This document shows, piece by piece, positions 4,247 to 63,729 of a DNA stretch of 64,000 bases (position 1 is the stretch's first letter; each line of letters starts with the position of its first letter). The notes under the pieces were generated by a model. That model did not search any database. It was not told the DNA's origin and worked only from the letters and a program-made list of their open reading frames with translations. The translations under genes were made by a program, and so were the position numbers. The stretch is from NCBI GenBank assembly GCA_963855995.1, contig OY979716.1:41935818-41999817 (forward strand). Direction: 5' to 3'. Source of the stretch: Muricea muricata. Taxonomy: Eukaryota > Cnidaria > Anthozoa > Malacalcyonacea > Plexauridae.

Positions 4247-4589
4247 GATGACATTGATGAACTAGTAAATCAACATGCGAGTGATAATTATGATTTTAAT
4301 GACATTAATGAGATAATTTATAATTAATATGAATTCGCGATAGACGATGCAACAGTATCTTTTATTTTCTGTACAGTAGACCTTTTTCGAGCTTTCTTAC
4401 ATGATTTGAATTGCATGCTGGACCGTAAAGCGTCCTATATATTTAAAAAGACTGATCTATTCGGGCAGCATCCTCATTTCAATATTCTTTATTATTCTTC
4501 GTAGTCTTTTTACTTCATGTTAGCACAATCATGTACTATTAACCCCTATGTATCTAGGATTTTTCTTTCTTCTATTATTACTTAACCAT
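4247..4589. other. Non-coding stretch before ISL2EU
   Basis: AT-rich sequence without a supportable gene. The target dinucleotide AT of the following transposon is at 4588-4589. Confidence 0.4.
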
Positions 4590-4606
4590 AGACAAATTTG
4601 GCTAAA

Positions 4607-6324
4607 ATGTCACGTGACTTGAATTGGGTGTTTACATCGCAAAATGTAATCACAATGGCAACTTCATGCTATTGTTGTGCAAATCACGTGGGTTGCTGCT
4701 CCTGTTTGTTTCATAACCAGGCAATTGGTTGGTCGAAATCTTTACGAAATTTTCCAAAAATTACTCCAGTTACCTGTTCTGAGTGGCTCAAATTTGGAGA
4801 AAAAAAGAACGCAGGAGAAAAAAGTTACAAATTCTTTCAAGAGGGCTATGTTTACGACATCTACACGAGTGTATCTGCGCCTGAACATTTTTACGCTAAA
4901 GCGCGCTGCTATCGGTCACTAAAGAAGAACGAAGAACCGCATTTTTCAACGATAATACTAAGGAAAAGTGATGACAGAGCGTCAGTTTATAGAGCACACT
5001 GTTCATGCAAAGCCGGTAGCGGTGGTCATTGTAATCACATATTTGCTCTTTTGTACCAGCTGAATGATTTCATGTGTTTAAATGTCATAGATATTCCAAG
5101 TGATTCTACGTGTACAAGTCGTCCCCAAACTTGGCATATCCCACGTTCTGCCTCCATTTGTCCTTTACCTGTAATGAGCACCCATCTTGCGTGTGCAGAA
5201 ACTGACAAACGTGAGAGAAAACGAAACCCAGTAAGCTGTAAATTATATGATGCTAGAGGTCATGATAACAAGAAAGCATTGACAAACAAGCGCGTGATGG
5301 ACGAAATTGAGTTCTTGAAAAACAAAAAACGCCACCACCCTTTTCATATTTGTTATGTGACCAAGAACCAGGGCTGCTGGTCAACACAGTGTTTGGAAAT
5401 GTACCCTTAGGTGCTTGCCTATCATATCAACTGCAAGACTTTGGGAGACCTAACACACGATTTTTCAAAAACTGCGGCGTTGAACGAAATTTTGACACCG
5501 AAAATGCATCACCAAATAACATTCAATTTCCTGATATTCCAATTACTCAAAACAATATGGAAACATTTAACATAGCAGAACTTAATATGCTGAATCAGTT
5601 GGGACTTTCCGATTTTTTTGCTCGTAATGTATTAATAGACATTGAAGAAGCACATAAATTAGAAAAACGAACAGTGTTACAGGGTGAATCTGAGGAATGG
5701 CTAAAACAGCACAAATATAAACTGACTGCCTCAAACTTTGGTAAAGTTTATTTCAGAAAACAATCGCCTTCAGAGTCTATGTTAAAGAGTATATTCACAC
5801 CAAGAGATTTGTCCAATGTTAAATCAATTTCACATGGAAAACAAAAAGAAACAGTTGCCAGAACTATCTATGCCAAAAAAATGCAGAAGGATGTACCAAA
5901 ATTTACAATATTTGATGCTGGAATCTCGGTTCATCCTTCATTTCCCTATCTAGGGGTCACTCCAGATGGGAAGGTGCTTGACCTATCTTCTGCTCAGACA
6001 TTTGGTCTGCTTGAAATAAAATGTCCGTTTTCAAAGCGAAATGAAACTTTGGAACAAGCAGTTGCGGATAAAGATTTTTACATTACAAAAACTGCTGACA
6101 AGTTTTGCCTCAAGGAAACACACGCATATTATGTACAAGTACAAGGGCAATTAGCTATTACAGGATTAACCTGGTGTGATTTTTGTGTGTTCTTATCCGA
6201 ATCTAATGAAATGTGTGTTCATAGAATCAATTTCGATGGAAACTTTTGGACTGATAAACTGCAGCCTACGCTAAAACAATTTTACCTAAATCATGGCTTA
6301 AAATTCATTGCTGGACAGACCTGA
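4607..6324 (+). pseudogene. SWIM zinc finger / YqaJ-type exonuclease of ISL2EU
   Basis: This is the accessory protein of ISL2EU, with a lambda-exonuclease-like (YqaJ) domain. The best start is ATG 4607; an upstream in-frame TTG lies inside the inverted repeat. First part (4607-5410): Cys-rich N-terminus, then a SWIM finger of the form CxC...CxH ('HCSCKAGSGGHCNH'). Second part (to 6324, another frame): 'HKYKLTASNFG', 'GKQKE', then the nuclease core 'LGVTPDG', 'LLEIKCP' (E-x-K) and 'YYVQVQGQL'. The catalytic Asp, Glu, Lys and Gln are all present. The frame changes once near 5345-5350, inside 'HHPFHI...CDQEPG'; without this single-base indel the protein would be complete. A very short intron is an alternative I consider unlikely. 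Confidence 0.85.
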
Positions 6325-6413
6325 ATGTCCAAATAAAACTTAAAGTTCTGTTTGGTATAGTTTTTTCTTGTATTGTCTTGTCACAGACTTTAAATAAAAT
6401 AACCTTGACATAA

Positions 6414-7948
6414 TCATTGCAGAACTGGATTTTGAAAGTTTGAAAGAATACATGAAACTGTGCATAGTTGATTAATACTTCCAAGCATAGTTATCGGAAT
6501 TACAGAATTGAATATACGATATCTTCGGATTTTTCCTATAGCTCGCTCAACATGAATCCTGTGCCTTACTGTAGTTTGTGTTTTGATACATCATCTTCTG
6601 TAAATCCAATCTTATCCTTCAAGAAGGGTGGAATATTTAGCTTCAGGCCCAGCACATTCAAATCCTCGTGAATATCAAATCCTTTGTCGGCCATAACTGA
6701 ATCACCCTTCAAAATCTCCCCAATGATAACTTTTTTCCTAAGAATTTCTAAGAAACCTGATTGTTGCACAATTTGTTTTTCATTTATTGATCCCTCGTAT
6801 AACTGGGAAACAAACATAACTCCCCCTTTTGGATCAACACCAATGAGGCACTTCAGTGTAGTATGAGATTTGTACATGCTATAACTTTCGCTATGTTTTT
6901 GCAAAGCACTGGGAACTTGAATTTTTAGTTCAGTAGCATCAATAATAATGACAGTGTCAGGATATTTCTCTAAAAATTCAGAAGGTGCATTTTGTAAAAT
7001 GACCTTTCTGTGAGGCCAAATTTTGAGGCTTCCCAGCCTGATATATAGGTAGTTAATCCAGGTAAGAAATATATTATTTACTGTTGCTTCCTTCATGCAA
7101 AACCTTTCAGCTAAATCTATAACGGATAAGCCCATTTTAAGCCTCATTAAGACAAAGAGAAACTCATTTTCAACAGATAGTTTATGGGCTGTTGGGCGAG
7201 TCATGGTTGACGAACTGCAGGCACTTTCGTCTTCGTCAACAGCTGTTTCTGTGTCCGATTCGCAGTTATCCTGTTGAAACAATGTTTCTGTGTCAATTGT
7301 TACGTCTTTTCTTGCGTGTGAATCCCAGTAAAGCAATCTTGTTCTGTCTAGATTTGGTAGTAAAAACTGCAGTGTGTTCATAAACTCGCCGTGCGAATTA
7401 AACCCAGTAAAATGATTGAATAACCATTCTTCTTTCTTTTGTGTCGTACATTTAGAAAGTAAATGAGATACTGAAAAACTATGCAAACATGGGATTCTGA
7501 CAAAATCTCCAAATAAATTTCCACAAACATCACTCTCATTAGTTTGCGTCTTGCGCGAAATAAGATTTATGTCGGTTGCATCGCCTTCCCCCTCCGATGC
7601 GCTATCAGTTGCTTCCTCGTTTTCGGTTCTATTCTTTTCCAGCTTTAACATAGCCGATGTCTTCTCTTTAGTCTTTAGTTTTTCCTTACTCCAAGCAAAT
7701 ACTGAAGGAACAGCAGTGCTTTTCAAGCGTCTTTTGGTCGAATATGGGTTAACAAAATCTTCATCCACAAAGTGTTCACTGCATATCCTAGTGTGCTTAT
7801 TTACGTTGAAATATCGAGGATCTCTCTTGATTTTTGTAATCCAGACAGACAAAAGAGTCGGCGAATTTATTGGCAATCCATGCCATGAAATATTCTTGCC
7901 AGCAGCGGAGCAATTGTAGCACTTTCCCACACAACAATAGTGAGGCAT
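6414..7948 (-). pseudogene. THAP-domain DDE transposase of ISL2EU
   Basis: This transposase should cut and join the element's ends. The start is ATG at 7948; the open frame upstream to 7999 lacks an ATG. The N-terminus is a THAP finger (C-x4-C near residues 5-10, then 'CSEHF' and the 'AVPSVF' box). A low-complexity Glu/Asp linker, a helix-turn-helix-like block ('LSVIDLAERFCMKEATVNNIF') and the IS5-type core follow: first Asp in 'IIDATELKI', second in 'MADKGFDI'. The main frame stops at 6566. One base out of phase it continues with 'HRIHVERAIG', which holds the catalytic Glu, and ends at TGA 6414-6416 ('NFQNPVLQ'). A single-base indel near 6570 therefore removes the last catalytic residue. Confidence 0.85.
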
Positions 7949-8184
7949 GTTGACTTTCGCTTTGTGATATTGGGTGCTTTGTTTACATTCTCTACCCAAT
8001 TCAAGTCACGTGACGCCCCTTCGGAAGTTAGCCAAATTTGTCTATTGTTGTATGTTTTGGAAAAAATTATAATAAAGATCTGTTCTTATCAGCTTAATAG
8101 ATTTGGCAGTGCTGCACTTGATCCAATCCTAGCTATCTATATATCAAATTGAATCTAAGGAGTTCAAGAATCTACTAGTCTGGT

Positions 8185-10607: not shown

Positions 10608-12000
10608 TCACTTAGCTGGAAATCTTCTCTATGAACATTTGAAAGAACAAGGTATGCTTGATGACAGCACCATGTGTTTTGAAGAGTTAGAAGAAGCGTT
10701 CCAAGATCTGCACTATGCCAAATATTTAGAAGTCCTGCAATCATGTGACTGTACCGACTGCTGCTCTGTTGTGGAATTTGATGCCAGCAACGAGAGGTAT
10801 TACTGACAATTACCTGTATTATGTATAAGTTTTGCAGGGGTGGAAAAGTTCAAATTTAATTTCGCAGTCACGCTGAAGAAGCAAAATTTACATTAGGTCT
10901 TAGCAGCATGAAAATTAAGTTGCTTACGGATTTGTTGCCAAATTATATTTGTCCTTCAAATGCATTGCTCTTTGTCGAGAAATGGGAATAAAAAATCATC
11001 GTAAAAACTGTGAAACTGGCAAACACCTTCGTGCCTAAAACTACCTTCCAAAAAACGATAGAAAATAGTGCAATTGTGTGCCAAATGCAATTTGGCAAAA
11101 ACCGTTGCACAAATTCATGATGTGCATTCAGGTAATTTTAGATAAAATACACTTCGCCAGCTATCATTATTGCATTGAGCATGAAAATCGCGAAGAGTTT
11201 ACTATGGTTCGAATCAAGGACAGACTGCGTCACTGTACCAGCACAGATGTCATTGCGCAAAGTCTGAGGATGCAATTCGTTCAAGCCTGCAAAGATGGTA
11301 CCATTTCGCAGCTTCTTTGCCCCGTTTTAGCACACCAACCATTAATGTTGCGACACCAAGCAACGTCTGTGCTACGTCTGTCAAGTATCTAGTTCCGTAT
11401 CTTTGCAAAAGGAAGGTGGAAGATGCCATTCCAAATTCCTGGAAAATCTCGAAAGCAATTGCCAGTGAGAAAAACCTGCTACCGTTACGAAAGGAATCTC
11501 TTCATGTGTGCGACGGCAATACGTGTGAGATCAGATTGTCAGGCAGCGAACCGCCCAAGCTGGCGAATTTGGCAACTCACAGCAAGACGATCCTAATTCG
11601 TATGCTGAGTTCAGACAGCCTAGAGACCGAATATTCTGTCCGCATATACAAGCAGTCCAAACAGTTGACAACCTTTGCAACATGTTTGACAAGGCACATG
11701 GGAATTCAATGTCTGCACGCGGCTAGACAACTCGTGTTTGAAGCAAAAGCCGTTTTCCTGCATGTCGAAAGGGACTTTTGTGGGAGGCCATTCTTAGCAA
11801 AAGATGACCACGGACGAAGACTTGTCCACCTCTTCCTGGAGAACTCGGACAGTGTACAAGAAAACTTTGCAGAAATGCTTGCATTTTACACCATGGGCGT
11901 AGACGTCGGCATAAATCAAGCCATGAGGAGAGCTGTCGCTGATAGGAAAGGCATATTTAACCTTCCCCAAGAAGTCTTTACTTTCCCAAACCGGCCCTGG
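10608..12000 (+). repeat. Segmental duplication, copy 1
   Basis: The segment beginning 'gtttacatcacttagctgg' is repeated at 13527-14937 with about twenty single-base differences by eye plus two indels (11 extra bases near 11821-11831, and a loss of about 18 bases near 11885). The left breakpoint joins NeSL-like DNA at 10607. The right breakpoint is after 'aaccggccctgg'. Both copies are in the same orientation, about 2.9 kb apart. Confidence 0.9.
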
Positions 12001-12060
12001 GTCAAAAAACATACCACAATCCCGTTAACTGTTATCATTGGCAAAACCACTTTGATTTAG
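10608..12060 (+). pseudogene. Unrecognised gene, truncated upstream copy
   Basis: This copy lacks the promoter and first part of the gene. It begins inside the helical Leu/Glu-rich section (ending TGA 10804-10806 unless spliced at 'gag|gtatta'), continues with an open frame 11078-11392 and then a good 247-codon frame 11317-12060. The latter has no stop where copy 2 has one (CGA here, TGA there). It contains 'TINVATPSNVCATSVKYLVPYLCKRK' and 'HVERDFCGRPF'. Its last codons, after 'FPNRPW', are foreign sequence beyond the duplication. I do not recognise a domain. Confidence 0.5.
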
Positions 12061-12500: not shown

Positions 12501-15303
12501 AGTCCTTCATATTGCCAATATTAATACCAGGCAGGAATGTCAGGGCTACGTTGAAAAATTTTTTTTATCTATCAAGAAAAACTTAGACGCCTTAGATGAC
12601 GAAAAATTGCTGCGAGGTTTCCAGGAGTCCATTAATAAGTTCTACACTTCATTGTTTGTGCAAAATTCCGGTAGGTCTTTTAATTTCCTAGCAGAGTTTT
12701 TAAAAATAGAACAACGCTGTCGATTTTGTCACACGAGTCCAAGAGCTAGTCTAAGCTGGTGCATTGTAGGAGATTTAATAGTGATAGTGCCTGAGCTCAC
12801 TAAAGTCATGTTTGTGATTAGTTCAACGATAATAATAATAATAATGTTTTTTAGGTTATTTTGAAAGAAGAGCGATCCAAACAGAGTTACTTATAGTGCC
12901 TGTTATTAGCGGCCAATCAGACCAACTCGAGCAGCAGCAAAGTGAAGCATCCACTAGTGCTTCACAAGACCAGGGGCAAGCACGGGGCCTTGGTAAGGGC
13001 CGGCCCGGCTGTGAGCGAGAGCCAGAAGTTATGAAGCGCCAAGAAAGGCGACGCGAAGAGCCCGTATTTACAAAGAGAAAGCGATCATTCTGCTCGGATG
13101 GCCAAGCGATGCCTCAACCACCGAAAAAGATCCTACGGGCCGTACAGCCAACATTGCAAACAACACCATCTCAGTCGCCTTCTTCAACGCCATCTGCGTC
13201 GCCTGCAAGATCCATTTCATCTGTCCAAGAGCTGCCTGAACCCGCTGAACGGCGAGAAAAACTTAAAGCACAGATATTTGAAAATCTAAAGAAGACTCAG
13301 GTGAAACTCATCCAGGACTCCTCCGGGAGCAAGCAAAGACACAGAGCCCAATGATTGAGAGCTAAATATTTTCTGGAGAGTCATGGACGAATGGCCAAAG
13401 CTCGACGAGAATTTAATAAAAAGCTTTTACAATTCTGGTGGTCTGAACTAGCGTCTGACCAGAAAACGTCACTGGAAGAGATAATATTACTACTGGTTCA
13501 GTTCCCAAAGGGTGTCAGCAACTGTTTACATCACTTAGCTGGAAATCTTCTCTATGAACATTTGAAAGAACAAGGTATGCTTGATGACAGCACCATGTGT
13601 TTTGAAGAGTTAGAAGAAGCGTTCCAAGATCTGCACTACGCCAAATATTTAGAAGTCCTGCAATCATGTGACTGTACCGACTGCTGCTCTGTTGTGGAAT
13701 TTGATGCCAGCTACGAGAGGTATTACTGACAATTACCTGTATTATGTATAAGTTTTGCAGGGGTGGAAAAGTTCAAATTTAATTTCGCGGTCACGCTGAA
13801 GAAGCAAAATTTACATTAGGTCTTAGCAGCATGAAAATTAAGTTGCTTACGGATTTGTTGCCAAATTATATTTGTCCTTCAAATGCATTGCTCTTTGTCG
13901 AGAAATGGGAATAAAAAATCATCGTAAAAACTGCGAAAATGGCAAACACCTTCGTGCCTAAAACTACCTTCCAAAAAACGATAGAAAATAGTGCAATTGT
14001 GTGCCAAATGCAATTTGGCAAAAACCGTTGCACAAATTCATGATGTGCATTCAGGTAATTTTAGATAAAATACACTTCGCCAGCTATCATTATTGCATTG
14101 AGCATGAAAATCGTGAAGAATTTACTATAGTTCGAATCAAGGACAGACTGCGTCACTGTACCAGCACAGATGTCATTGTGCAAAGTCTGAGGGTGCAATT
14201 CGTTCAAGCCTGCAAAGATGGTACCATTTCGCAGCTTCTTTGCCCCGATTTAGCACACCAACCATTAATGTTGCGACACCAAGCAACGTCTGTGCTACGT
14301 CTGTCAAGTATCTAGTTCCGTATCTTTGCAAAAGGAAGGTGGAAGATGCCATTCCAAATTTCTGGAAAATCTCGAAAGCAATTGCCAGTGAGAAAAACCT
14401 GCTACCGTTATGAAAGGAATCTCTTCATGTGTGCGACGGCAATACGTGTGAGATCAGATTGTCAGGCAGCGAACCGCCCAAGCTGGCGAATTTGGCAACT
14501 CACGGCAAGACGATCCTAATTCGTATGCTGAGTTCAGACAGCCTAGAGACCGAATATTCTGTCCGCATATACAAGCAGTCCAAACAGTTGACAACCTTTG
14601 CAACATGTTTGACAAGGCACATGGGAATTGAATGTCTGCACGCGGCTAGACAACTCGTGTTTGAAGCAAAAGCTGTTTTCCTGCATGTTGAAAGGGACTT
14701 TTGTGGGAGGCCATTCTTAGCAAAAGATGACCACGGACGAAGTCTTCCTGGAGAACTCGGACAGTGTACAAGAAAACTTTGCAGAAATGCTTGCATCGCG
14801 TGGGTTTACGCTTTCATTTTATACCATGGGCGTAGACGTTGGCATAAATCAAGCCATGAGGAGAGCTGTCGCTGATAGGAAAGACATATTTAACCTTCTC
14901 CAAGAAGTCTTTACTTTTCCAAACCGGCCCTGGGATTTACGAAAACTCGCTTTACAAGGCCAACTGAATGTCTACGACGAATGCCGAGAAATTCTTAACA
15001 AGCCTGCCGAACCCGAGCTCGCGTGGGTTCCCCAAGAAAACTGGCTCCATTCAAGAACGGTGAGGATGGAAGTATCCTGGACAGCCAAAGTACAGACAGT
15101 TCCTTTCCACGGATGGTTCCTAGCAAATTATTTTGGGAAAGTAGATGCTATGTAGCCCAAAGCACCATTCCAAACATCGGCCGCGGTCTCTTCCTCCTAC
15201 CACATAAAGACACGATTTCAGTGGGTGAACATTTGTGCCTCTATGCCAAAAACAGTACAACCATTGAGCAAATTATATTAATTGTATTTTTGATTGACAT
15301 CTG
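12501..15303 (+). pseudogene. Unrecognised multi-part gene with SET-like C-terminus (copy 2, with promoter)
   Basis: I do not recognise this gene. From the promoter onward it shows: a frame open from 12505 to about 12790 without ATG ('FLSIKKNLDALDDEKLLRGF', then 'CRFCHTSP'), with a probable intron from about 12765 to a 'ttttttag' near 12854; a Gln/Ser/Pro-rich linker (12896-13354) with basic 'KRKR'; after an in-frame TGA, a helical Leu-rich block (13355-13729) ending 'CDCTDCC'; a possible 41-nt intron (13713-13753); pieces 14001-14315, about 14260-14875 (TGA at 14411-14413) and 14727-15155; and finally 15023-15304, whose 'STIPNIGRGLF' resembles the start of a SET methyltransferase domain but is cut short. 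Several stops and frame changes suggest a pseudogene. Unusual splicing could explain some of them. Confidence 0.45.
13527..14937 (+). repeat. Segmental duplication, copy 2
   Basis: This is the downstream partner of 10608-12000. It is embedded in sequence that continues the gene on both sides (promoter and linker before, SET-like end after), so it is the more original location. Many differences between copies are C/T or G/A at CpG, including the CGA-to-TGA stop at 14411-14413. Confidence 0.9.
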
Positions 15304-59867: not shown

Positions 59868-60240
59868 AAAAATACAAAGAAGGCAAAATCCGTGTCGCCA
59901 AAGGGAGGAATAAAGCGAACCTAACCTGAAGAATCTGGACAATCAAAAGCAAAAAAACCAAAGAACGTACATGTGTAGTCCAAATTCTTTCAAATGGTAT
60001 TTATGTGCGTTAATGTACTGTCTGTAATTAAATAGGTAGATAATCCAAGTGAGAATATTATTATTTACAACTTTTAAAGGGCATTGGCAATAAAAAATTT
60101 TATTGTTTCATGCGAAAGAGCATGAAAAATTAAGCTAATTGGCCATTTACTGTAATAGACTATCTCTATTAGTTCCGAAGTTATTTGCAAAAATGTGCAA
60201 AATATAAACTGCTGATTCAGCAAAAGTTGTGACGTCACTA
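59868..60240. other. Spacer before the Tigger element
   Basis: Contains the presumed 3' UTR of the small gene. The TA target of the following element is at 60239-60240. Confidence 0.35.
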
Positions 60241-60304
60241 CAGTCGAACCCCGTTAATACGGTCACCAACGGGTCGAAATAATATGGCCGTATTAACGGG
60301 GTAA
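60241..60304. repeat. Left terminus and subterminal transposase-site repeats
   Basis: The terminal CAGTCGAACCCCGTTAATACGG is followed by an inward copy at 60286-60302 (GGCCGTATTAACGGGGT). The motif matches those at the right end and probably is the CENP-B-like transposase binding site. Confidence 0.7.
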
Positions 60305-60436
60305 TATCAAATTTCAATTGTGACATAAAAGCCATGTTAAAAAATTTATTTCAAAAGCACAGCAACAACACGATACCACAATACAATTAATAACTACATA
60401 AATCATAAAAAGTTTTAAGTAATGTTAACGAAACAC

Positions 60437-62070
60437 TCAGGATTTGGTAAAAAAATCAGTGACTTTTGATTGCCTTTTCTTTGTCTCCAGCCAATCATTC
60501 TGCGTTCGAAAAATCACTTTGGAAAGTTCGTTTGCCGTATCAATGTTTCCCTTTGACTGCAAAAACTGTAAAGCATCTTCAAGGTTTGCTACAGCTTCCT
60601 TATACGAAGATACTTTTAAACTTGCCACTGCAACTTCTTCCTCATCATAATCATCATTTGCATTGTTGTCATCATCGCTGTCGTTGATATCAATAGTTGC
60701 CTGGTTCACGTTCAAATCGCTAAAGAAACTGACTTCCCAATTGTCTGGTAATTCTTTGCAAACTGGTGGGTCATGGCACCCGGATACTGCTTCTTTAATG
60801 CCTATAGCGTTTACTCCACTCGCTTGATGGGCCATGTCCTCGACATTGCTAATTTCACTCTGAAGTTCAGCGAAAGGGTCAACATCACTGTTTGCCACCT
60901 CAAGGGCATTGAGTTCACCTTCTGAAGTAAGTATGCCCGCCTTGATGAAACATTTAACAACTGTTGATTCTGAAACATCGTTCCATGCCATCGCAGTCCA
61001 TCGCATTGCTTGCAAAACATCGATTGACTTACAAACTTCGAATGCAGAAGAACATTCATCGATTTTGCTAACTACGTGTGTCAACAAGCACCTGTAATAC
61101 TTGAGTTTAAATGCCTGTATTATTCCGAGATCAAGTGGCTGCAAGAGAGATGTGGTGTTTGCAGGTAGAAACACGACATTTATTTGGGTAAATTTCTCAT
61201 CCAGATCTTCGGGGTGACATGGGGCATTGTCCATAAGCAAGAGGATTCTTCGATTCTGGGTTTTCAAGCGGCGATTCAGATTACTGAGAATTTTTTCCAA
61301 TATTCCACCTTCCATCCACGCTTTACGTTGATTAAAATACTGGCATGGTAATGTCGATCTATCGGCAATCCCCTTAAGGCATCTTGGGTTAGCTGACTTG
61401 CCAACGACGATAGGCTTCTCTTTGCCACCCTTGGCATTCACGAAGAAAGCACAAGTCAGTCTCTCCTTAGATTTTTTCCCACCTGTACAATTATGGGATG
61501 AATCTGCTAGTGATTTATTCGGCAAAGCCCTGAAGAATTGACCAGTTTCATCCATATTCCAGATGTTTTCTGGTTCCCATCCTTGTAAGATGTCTGGAAG
61601 TCTTTCTTTCGAGGAGTCGACCGTGGTTTTGCTTACATCTCCCGCTTCGCCAGAAATAAATCTAGCCTTGATACCGTTCCTGTTCTTGAAGCGATCTAGC
61701 CATCCGTTTGATGCTTTAAATTCAGACGGGGCTACATCTAATGCTTTTGCAATTTGCAGGGCTTTTTCTTGTAGTATCAGACCAGATATAGGGATATTCT
61801 TGCTTCTCGCTTTACGAAACCATTCCAGTAATGCGCTGTCAATTTCAACATTCTTCCCTTGTCTTGATTGTTTTGTATCGCTGCTAGCGTTAGCTTCAAA
61901 AGCTGCCACAATCTCATCTCTCTTCAGTAAAATACGTTGAATTTGAGTTCTTCCACAACTAAATTTTTCCGCCAGTTTTCTTGTGCTTTCCTGGGAATTA
62001 GCATCACTAAATTTGATTACTTCATATCGCGTTTTCAAGTCAAGTTCTTGCCGTTTACTTTTGACGACAT
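60437..62070 (-). CDS. Tigger/pogo transposase (near-intact)
   Basis: An open frame of 533 codons (62038-60437) encodes a DDD transposase. The N-terminal helix-turn-helix is 'KTRYEVIKFSDAN...STRKLAEKFSCGRTQIQRIL', followed by a CENP-B-type second domain ('LLEWFRKARSKNIPISGLILQEKALQIA'). Catalytic Asp are at residue 163 (NMDETG), 270 (LLMDNAPCH) and 303 (LQPLDLGI), numbered from the TTG at 62038. The frame has no ATG at its start. ATG 62070 lies one base out of phase across an A4 run near 62058, so either one A was lost or the assembly is wrong. The C-terminus is acidic and ends 'RQSKVTDFFTKS', a PCNA-binding (PIP) box. Confidence 0.9.
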
Positions 62071-62532
62071 GACAAACGTAGCTAGCTCAAGACAAGAAAA
62101 ATTTTGAAACCATATACCTTTTTCACACTTTCTTACATTTGTACCATAGTAACTGACATTATTTTAGTGACAATCCCCCAAACATTTCCGACAACACACA
62201 AAGACTAGGAAACATTTCATTAGCTGTTATCATTCAGCACTGAAGCAAGTAAAAACCTGTCTGCGTTTCATGCGTTATGTCGGACCTAAGTTTTAACGAA
62301 ATCGAAGTTCCCTCTTGGATTCGTGGATACCACGCATACAAAGATTACTGGCAGATCAAGATTGGAGAAGTCCTGGACATAAGGCATGAGCCACAGAATG
62401 AGCAAGACAACAATGCTATTGCTGTGATAAAAGATGGGGAAGTAGTTGGCCATATACCAAAGGGCTTAGCGAGTACAAAACAAGGGACAGCCATTGTCAA
62501 GCATTTTCTAACGAAAACAGGCTGCAAAGCTG
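61908..62532. repeat. 625-bp tandem duplication, unit A
   Basis: It spans the first part of the transposase gene, the divergent promoter and the first 85 codons of the HIRAN gene. Only two differences from unit B are seen (61995 G versus 62620 A; 62053 G versus 62678 A). Confidence 0.95.
62071..62276. promoter_or_regulatory. Divergent promoter between transposase and HIRAN gene
   Basis: A 206-bp spacer between two divergent start codons. The same spacer is repeated at 62696-62901. No TATA box is clear. Confidence 0.5.
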
Positions 62533-62555
62533 ACAATCTCATCTCTCTTCAGTAA
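62277..62555 (+). pseudogene. HIRAN-domain gene, truncated duplicate
   Basis: Identical to the start of the full gene at 62902 through residue 85 ('KTGCKA'). It then runs into duplicated transposase sequence and stops after seven foreign residues ('DNLISLQ'). The duplication boundary, not a point mutation, broke it. The HIRAN core residues are still present, so a short product is possible. Confidence 0.85.
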
Positions 62556-63157
62556 AATACGTTGAATTTGAGTTCTTCCACAACTAAATTTTTCCGCCAG
62601 TTTTCTTGTGCTTTCCTGGAAATTAGCATCACTAAATTTGATTACTTCATATCGCGTTTTCAAGTCAAGTTCTTGCCATTTACTTTTGACGACATGACAA
62701 ACGTAGCTAGCTCAAGACAAGAAAAATTTTGAAACCATATACCTTTTTCACACTTTCTTACATTTGTACCATAGTAACTGACATTATTTTAGTGACAATC
62801 CCCCAAACATTTCCGACAACACACAAAGACTAGGAAACATTTCATTAGCTGTTATCATTCAGCACTGAAGCAAGTAAAAACCTGTCTGCGTTTCATGCGT
62901 TATGTCGGACCTAAGTTTTAACGAAATCGAAGTTCCCTCTTGGATTCGTGGATACCACGCATACAAAGATTACTGGCAGATCAAGATTGGAGAAGTCCTG
63001 GACATAAGGCATGAGCCACAGAATGAGCAAGACAACAATGCTATTGCTGTGATAAAAGATGGGGAAGTAGTTGGCCATATACCAAAGGGCTTAGCGAGTA
63101 CAAAACAAGGGACAGCCATTGTCAAGCATTTTCTAACGAAAACAGGCTGCAAAGCTG
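62533..63157. repeat. 625-bp tandem duplication, unit B
   Basis: Direct copy of 61908-62532. The junction near 62528-62533 has short homology ('agctg') between the HIRAN and transposase genes. Confidence 0.95.
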
Positions 63158-63369
63158 AAGTTAAGGTTGTTGGAAATGCTGTCAATCGCGGTGGTGGATA
63201 TGGTATGGAAGTCCCGTGCATCTATAAATTTCAGGCACAGAACATATACATCGAGTTGCTCAGGAAACTTTTGGACATTGATAATAATTTATCTGTCAGA
63301 TATGAAACAAGAAAAAGACACGCAGAACAGGAAGAAAATAAAAACAGTACTGAAGCTAAACGACGTTAA
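62902..63369 (+). CDS. Stand-alone HIRAN-domain protein
   Basis: An ATG-started protein of 155 residues. The HIRAN pattern is clear: 'VPSWIRGYHAYKDYW', 'IGEVLDIRHEPQNEQDNNAIAV', 'GEVVGHIPKGLAS'. The C-terminus is helical, with a Lys/Arg/Glu-rich end ('RKRHAEQEENKN...EAKRR') that may be nuclear-targeting. In HLTF, HIRAN binds 3' ends of single-stranded DNA. It also occurs alone in mobile elements and phages. Here it lies inside Tigger termini, divergent from the transposase, so it may act on transposon ends or repair intermediates (inference). Confidence 0.85.
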   Translation: MSDLSFNEIEVPSWIRGYHAYKDYWQIKIGEVLDIRHEPQNEQDNNAIAVIKDGEVVGHIPKGLASTKQGTAIVKHFLTKTGCKAEVKVVGNAVNRGGGYGMEVPCIYKFQAQNIYIELLRKLLDIDNNLSVRYETRKRHAEQEENKNSTEAKRR

Positions 63370-63534
63370 AAAACCTTGGGTTTTTCACTTTTAACTGAAG
63401 CCAATATGTAAAGTTTTAAATGCGTTACTTTTATAATAAGAATAAAATAAGTAACATGATATAACACGGATGTCATGGTCTACATCTATGTTTGGGGTCT
63501 TAAATTATGTTTCCGTCTGTCGACACATTTAGAA

Positions 63535-63727
63535 TGTCCGTATTAACGGGGTGATTTCATTAGTTTAGGACTCGGCAATGTGGCCATTGGCCGTATTAGC
63601 GGGGTGGCCGTATTAAAGGGGTAACTTTAATATAAAATGCATTGGTGTTTCGCCGGGACCAAAAAAAGGTGACCGTATTATCGAGATGACCGTATTATCG
63701 AGGTGGCCGTAAGGCGGGGTTCCACTG
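63535..63727. repeat. Right terminus with multiple subterminal repeats
   Basis: About six copies of a CCGTATTA(A/T/G)CG(G/A)GG motif lie between 63538 and the end (for example 63538, 63590, 63609, 63672, 63689, and the terminal GGCCGTAAGGCGGGG). The left end has two. Such arrays are candidate transposase or host-factor binding sites. Confidence 0.75.
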
Positions 63728-63729
63728 TA

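Follow-up and report, generated by a model that had tools for sequence, protein, structure and literature searches.

The window analysed here, a 64-kb stretch of contig OY979716.1 from Muricea muricata, contains a pogo/Tigger-type DNA transposon, whose anatomy is described below from a single copy at this one locus. In this copy a single pair of TA-flanked termini encloses two divergent genes: a transposase gene and a gene encoding a small protein with a HIRAN domain. The boundaries, end motifs and genes of the element are as follows.

60241-63727: complete pogo/Tigger-type element, 3487 bp (2862 bp if one unit of an internal tandem duplication is discounted)
60239-60240: TA target-site copy, left
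63728-63729: TA target-site copy, right
60241-60253, + strand: left terminal inverted repeat, CAGTCGAACCCCG, 13 bp
63715-63727, - strand: right terminal inverted repeat, CAGTGGAACCCCG, 13 bp
60249-60301: left-end copies of the motif CCGTATTANCGGGG (n = 2), at 60249 (- strand, overlapping the terminus) and 60288 (+ strand)
63538-63703, + strand: right-end copies of CCGTATTANCGGGG (n = 5), at 63538, 63591, 63608, 63673 and 63690
60437-62086, - strand: transposase open frame, 549 codons, with no in-frame ATG before codon 178
62902-63369, + strand: intact HIRAN gene, 155 codons, ATG to stop

The first-pass annotation of this DNA had described TA-flanked termini and, between them, an intact 155-residue HIRAN protein encoded in opposite orientation to the transposase, and both descriptions were confirmed. 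The 13-bp terminal inverted repeats CAGTCGAACCCCG and CAGTGGAACCCCG are identical at 12 of 13 positions, with TA immediately outside each. The 155-residue product of the uninterrupted open reading frame (ORF) at 62902-63369 matches the Pfam HIRAN family (PF08797; expectation (E) value 7.3e-11; 42.2 bits, curated cut-off 24.7) over residues 10-95, and no other Pfam domain was found in it at E up to 1. A frame of 155 codons stayed open in only 2 of 20000 first-order Markov sequences of matching composition, and G+C content by codon position is alike in the HIRAN (51.6/32.9/38.7%) and transposase (48.6/37.7/38.3%) genes. Basic clusters in the tail of the protein (RKR at 137, KRR at 153) are possible nuclear signals. 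The motif CCGTATTANCGGGG occurs seven times in the window (≤2 mismatches), all seven within the element, where 0.40 copies would be expected by chance (maximum 3 among 100 shuffles); these copies are probably transposase-binding sites.

The transposase frame is free of stops, so that the earlier description of a ‘near-intact’ DDD transposase is fair, yet the first in-frame ATG is found only at codon 178 of 549 (an ATG at 62068-62070 is out of frame). Since no in-frame ATG precedes the first helix-turn-helix (HTH), this copy may be defective; alternatively, the transposase may be spliced from an upstream exon or use an alternative start. The 533 codons of this frame from 62038 onwards have Pfam matches to DDE_1 (E 2.5e-36) and HTH_Tnp_Tc5 (E 4.1e-19; 68.7 bits, cut-off 22.2), while CENP-B_N falls below its cut-off (12.7 bits vs 21.2). 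Residues 8-121 match the structure of the CENP-B DNA-binding domain (1hlv, E 2.8e-13), the sole match in PDB. The following features were located in the transposase.

61661-61849, - strand: HTH_Tnp_Tc5 DNA-binding domain, residues 64-126 of 533
60947-61468, - strand: DDE_1 catalytic domain, residues 191-364 of 533
61130-61552, - strand: first to third putative catalytic Asp (DD32D), at 61550-61552, 61229-61231 and 61130-61132
60449-60472, - strand: C-terminal motif QSKVTDFF, resembling a PCNA-interacting protein (PIP) box and a candidate PCNA-binding site

The three putative catalytic Asp are separated by 106 and then 32 residues, the first, placed by a motif, presumably being the catalytic one. 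Membership of the pogo superfamily is firm. As in Tigger, the element has a TA target site, short inverted termini, DDE_1, HTH_Tnp_Tc5 and a matching size, its 13-bp terminal inverted repeats lying within the Tigger range of 8-33 bp (PMC9219625) and its DD32D spacing within DD29-36D (PMC7386202). Tigger-type transposases have HTH_Tnp_Tc5 with or without CENP-B_N (PMC7386202), and HTH_Tnp_Tc5 is found here. Placement in the Tigger clade, as opposed to pogoR, is not firm: pogoR is a possible assignment because CENP-B, the only PDB match, is listed as pogoR-derived and pogoR spans DD29-59D/E (PMC7386202). Tigger itself has been called polyphyletic (PMC7325037).

QSKVTDFF is followed by three residues to the transposase C-terminus, and when the transposase was shuffled 50000 times, a PIP-like pattern landed in the C-terminal 15 residues in 21 cases. 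The motif fits a pogo/Tigger assignment, since the fly pogo transposase is a PCNA interactor and a PIP box is conserved in Tigger (PMC5371812). This motif, the late in-frame ATG and the 625-bp tandem duplication described next are additions to the first-pass annotation.

The tandem duplication doubles the intergenic stretch and the 5′ ends of both genes, and gives rise to the following features.

61908-62532: tandem duplication, unit 1, 625 bp
62533-63157: tandem duplication, unit 2, with 2 differences in 625
62087-62276: 190-bp intergenic stretch between the head-to-head genes, repeated at 62712-62901
62277-62555, + strand: truncated HIRAN ORF of unit 1, 92 codons

Unit 1 thus links the full transposase frame to the truncated HIRAN ORF, and unit 2 links a 5′ fragment of the transposase gene to the intact HIRAN gene. 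In each unit the genes are arranged head to head, with 190 bp from the open transposase frame to the HIRAN ATG, and this stretch is probably a shared promoter. The short shared sequence AAAGCTG adjoins the breakpoints of the duplication (61908-63157), as with template-switching repair, and the duplication may have been left behind when gap repair was interrupted. Apart from the duplication, tblastn found no second copy of either gene in the 64-kb window (remaining matches E 0.65 and 5.1).

Near-identical tandem copies (2 of 625 positions differ) can also be produced by misassembly, and the HIRAN stretch together with the 625-bp repeat might derive from mis-joined haplotypes or from another repeat nested here. 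This is very improbable: the right-end motif array and terminus follow within 358 bp 3′ of the intact HIRAN gene, and the transposase and HIRAN genes are neighbours in either unit, because each unit runs without a break from the 5′ end of the transposase through the intergenic stretch to the 5′ end of HIRAN. The longest exact direct or inverted repeat between the sequences on either side of the HIRAN gene (62712-62901 and 63370-63727) is 10 bp; HIRAN is therefore not an obvious nested insertion, and that explanation was rejected. With no sizeable repeats bracketing it, the HIRAN gene should therefore move with the element. Longer, imperfect inverted pairs spanning it wholly or partly (18-26 nt, 73-84%) have one arm in transposase coding DNA. 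The two-gene element proposed in the first pass thus stands as anatomy, for this copy, with both genes 190 bp apart inside one pair of termini.

The main rival explanation is a one-off capture, in which this one Tigger copy acquired its HIRAN gene from the host or from another element, through repair or transduplication, and the gene rides along with no part in transposition. A single copy was observed, it bears a recent internal rearrangement in the form of the duplication, and an intact frame would be expected of any recent capture. The compact arrangement argues the other way, with just 190 bp from the open transposase frame to the HIRAN ATG in each unit and no sizeable junction repeats, as does the ordinary length of the element minus one duplication unit (2862 bp, near the usual ~2.8 kb of Tigger; PMC9219625); the HIRAN protein is also distant from HLTF. 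Capture of this kind is accordingly judged rather unlikely, and the evidence leans towards the HIRAN gene being a working second gene of the element.

Searches for relatives covered collections that hold viral, prokaryote, phage and plasmid sequence, in which animal DNA is scarce, so that empty results say little about animals. A HIRAN protein pattern retrieved 4 stretches from viral contigs and 40 from genome contigs, and two scans of viral contigs for HIRAN-like alignments retrieved 32 and 14; in each case none was confirmed. The same was true of the transposase in viral contigs (8 stretches, 0 confirmed) and of its conserved catalytic stretch in two scans of viral contigs (45 and 78, 0 confirmed in each) and in genome contigs (59, 0 confirmed). 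DNA patterns of the terminus and of the end motif were found in no viral contig, and tblastn of the transposase against plasmids and phages gave no match at E up to 0.01. With the HIRAN protein as query, tblastn returned weak matches to 11 phage and 2 plasmid records (E 0.2-0.9); two of these, entries of Stenotrophomonas phage AXL_1, are annotated as HIRAN, and the remainder are hypothetical or unannotated. The HIRAN of AXL_1 was confirmed by a family search of that record, scoring above the Pfam cut-off, and HIRAN was also matched in 1 of 14 control genomes. PHROGs gave seven weak matches to the HIRAN protein (best E 1.4e-5), annotated as of unknown function. NCBIfam had no match for the HIRAN protein, and the transposase matched IS630 there below threshold; Rfam (gathering threshold) and tRNA scans of the 64-kb window returned nothing.

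The HIRAN protein shares with HLTF and Rad5 a Pfam HIRAN domain scoring above the cut-off, but these proteins also have a SNF2 translocase and a RING domain, both absent from the 155-residue protein. The stand-alone HIRAN of AXL_1 is similarly small and 32% identical over 68 positions, but belongs to a phage, has a database-wide E of only 0.3 and ends in a different C-terminal tail.

According to the first-pass annotation, a transposase is normally the only product of Tigger elements. This is in line with a survey of 383 elements, where a single ORF was present in most of the complete ones (PMC9219625), and pogo members are described with one or two ORFs, encoding transposases (PMC7386202). 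The element differs from most complete Tigger elements in its second, divergent HIRAN gene, the single ORF being a descriptive trait of Tigger and not a strict definition. The annotation had also known of no Tigger family with this gene, and HIRAN was not found in a pogo/Tigger element among the matches listed from the literature surveyed, which was mainly open-access; a described family may exist, for example in subscription literature, Repbase or Dfam. Among the publications retrieved for HIRAN domains together with transposable elements, in the portions available, none ties HIRAN to an animal transposon, and HIRAN has 0 occurrences in the main text of a Tc1/mariner survey (PMC7325037). A match to the word ‘hiran’ in PMC9179366 was an author name and was discarded.

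Extra genes are found in other elements. The ciliate TBE/Tec elements are likewise related to Tc1/mariner and carry extra ORFs, but differ in their hosts and in what these ORFs encode, a zinc-finger protein in TBE and a site-specific recombinase in Tec (PMC7325037). ISL2EU (Harbinger-like) is, like the present element, an animal DNA transposon combining a transposase with a second gene acting on DNA, here a YqaJ exonuclease (PMC9179366), and sets the precedent for pairing a transposase with a DNA-processing partner in an animal transposon of two genes, although its transposase family and accessory domain are unrelated to those of the Muricea element. An ISL2EU-like two-gene transposon is also present in the window, at 4584-8049 (inverted ends of 22 nt at 95% and 21 nt at 100%), with a YqaJ ORF (5311-6324, + strand) and a THAP plus DDE_Tnp_4 transposase (6566-8005, - strand). 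Transposon types such as this one point to an animal host. This YqaJ ORF contains two PIP-like motifs, QLGLSDFF and QPTLKQFY; of the 29 stop-to-stop ORFs of ≥150 codons in the window, only it and the Tigger transposase have a PIP-like motif, and ISL2EU nucleases may thus have a link to PCNA. Elsewhere in the window, a nearly identical stretch of protein is encoded by ORFs 11185-12060 and 14414-14875, which lack Pfam matches at E up to 0.01 and presumably represent a repeat of some gene or element.

In a PDB search at E up to 10 the HIRAN protein matched HLTF alone, weakly (5 distinct sequences, E 0.24-0.33). In this weak alignment Q40/N41 of the protein lie opposite HLTF N90/N91, N91 being kept. 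The positions of HLTF D94, H110 and K113, which presumably contact DNA, are also kept (numbers counted from Y93). The HIRAN domain of HLTF binds a 3′-OH end, and in isolation (residues 1-180) it inhibits the clearing of Cas9 from its cut site by HLTF and is a dominant negative on end resection, much more weakly so with N90/N91 mutated (PMC11237066). Binding of 3′ ends by the protein encoded here is plausible.

Excision of the Tc1/mariner type leaves short 3′ overhangs. In the mechanism proposed, the transposase would excise the element after recognising its termini along with the repeated end motif, with its C-terminal PIP-like motif perhaps tying it to the replication clamp, as suggested by pogo. 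The small HIRAN protein, probably nuclear, would bind 3′-ended single strands and might so cover the 3′ tails present in the excision intermediate, both at the ends of the transposon and at the donor gap, where it could keep host remodellers such as HLTF from clearing the transposase-DNA complex; alternatively, it could channel the donor gap into copying repair. A two-gene pogo/Tigger-type transposon whose HIRAN protein shields 3′ tails or steers repair is the best explanation overall, held tentatively and at somewhat under an even chance. The end-shield or decoy mechanism taken by itself is possible but doubtful.

Several observations weigh against this explanation. The best match to HLTF has an E of 0.24 over 40 residues, both HLTF N90 and Y93 are replaced by Q, and the counterpart of Y72 is uncertain, Y72 and Y93 being the residues through which HLTF stacks on the dinucleotide it binds (PMC4666394). 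AlphaFold, run on the single sequence of the HIRAN protein, gave a model too poor to use (mean predicted local distance difference test score 43.3). Recognition of 3′ ends is not to be assumed, because the HIRAN domain of Rad5 binds single-stranded DNA with blocked ends equally well (PMC7804152). A PIP-like pattern arose anywhere in the transposase in 1215 of 50000 shuffles, and QSKVTDFF has V where the consensus Qxx[I/L/M]xxF[F/Y] calls for I, L or M. The intact HIRAN gene adjoins a transposase fragment and not the full gene, in a sole copy that is possibly defective, as the transposase frame has no ATG ahead of the HTH. The two positions at which the duplication units differ both fall in transposase coding DNA, and the units therefore carry no test of selection on HIRAN.

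The HIRAN gene might also be a real second gene of the family that serves another step, for example PCNA binding, damping of repair signalling or choice of replication forks as targets. The HIRAN domain of Rad5 also mediates interaction with PCNA (PMC7804152), the transposase here has its own PIP-like motif, and other elements link transposition machinery to sliding clamps and replication forks (PMC5371812); such a role is nevertheless considered unlikely.

For the shielding or steering of repair by the HIRAN protein a direct test is available, since isolated HLTF HIRAN is reported to be dominant negative at a nuclease-held break (PMC11237066). In its most far-reaching form, which is speculative and improbable as a whole, a Tigger lineage would possess a stand-alone HIRAN of its own as a natural dominant negative of HLTF, guarding the 3′ tails after cleavage, while the PIP-bearing transposase couples excision to the clamp; repeated copies of such an element could also seed stand-alone HIRAN genes in animal genomes. 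Closure of the donor gap left by cut-and-paste transposons depends on host repair, and a transposon carrying its own 3′-end- or fork-sensing protein would, if this explanation is true, interfere with that closure.

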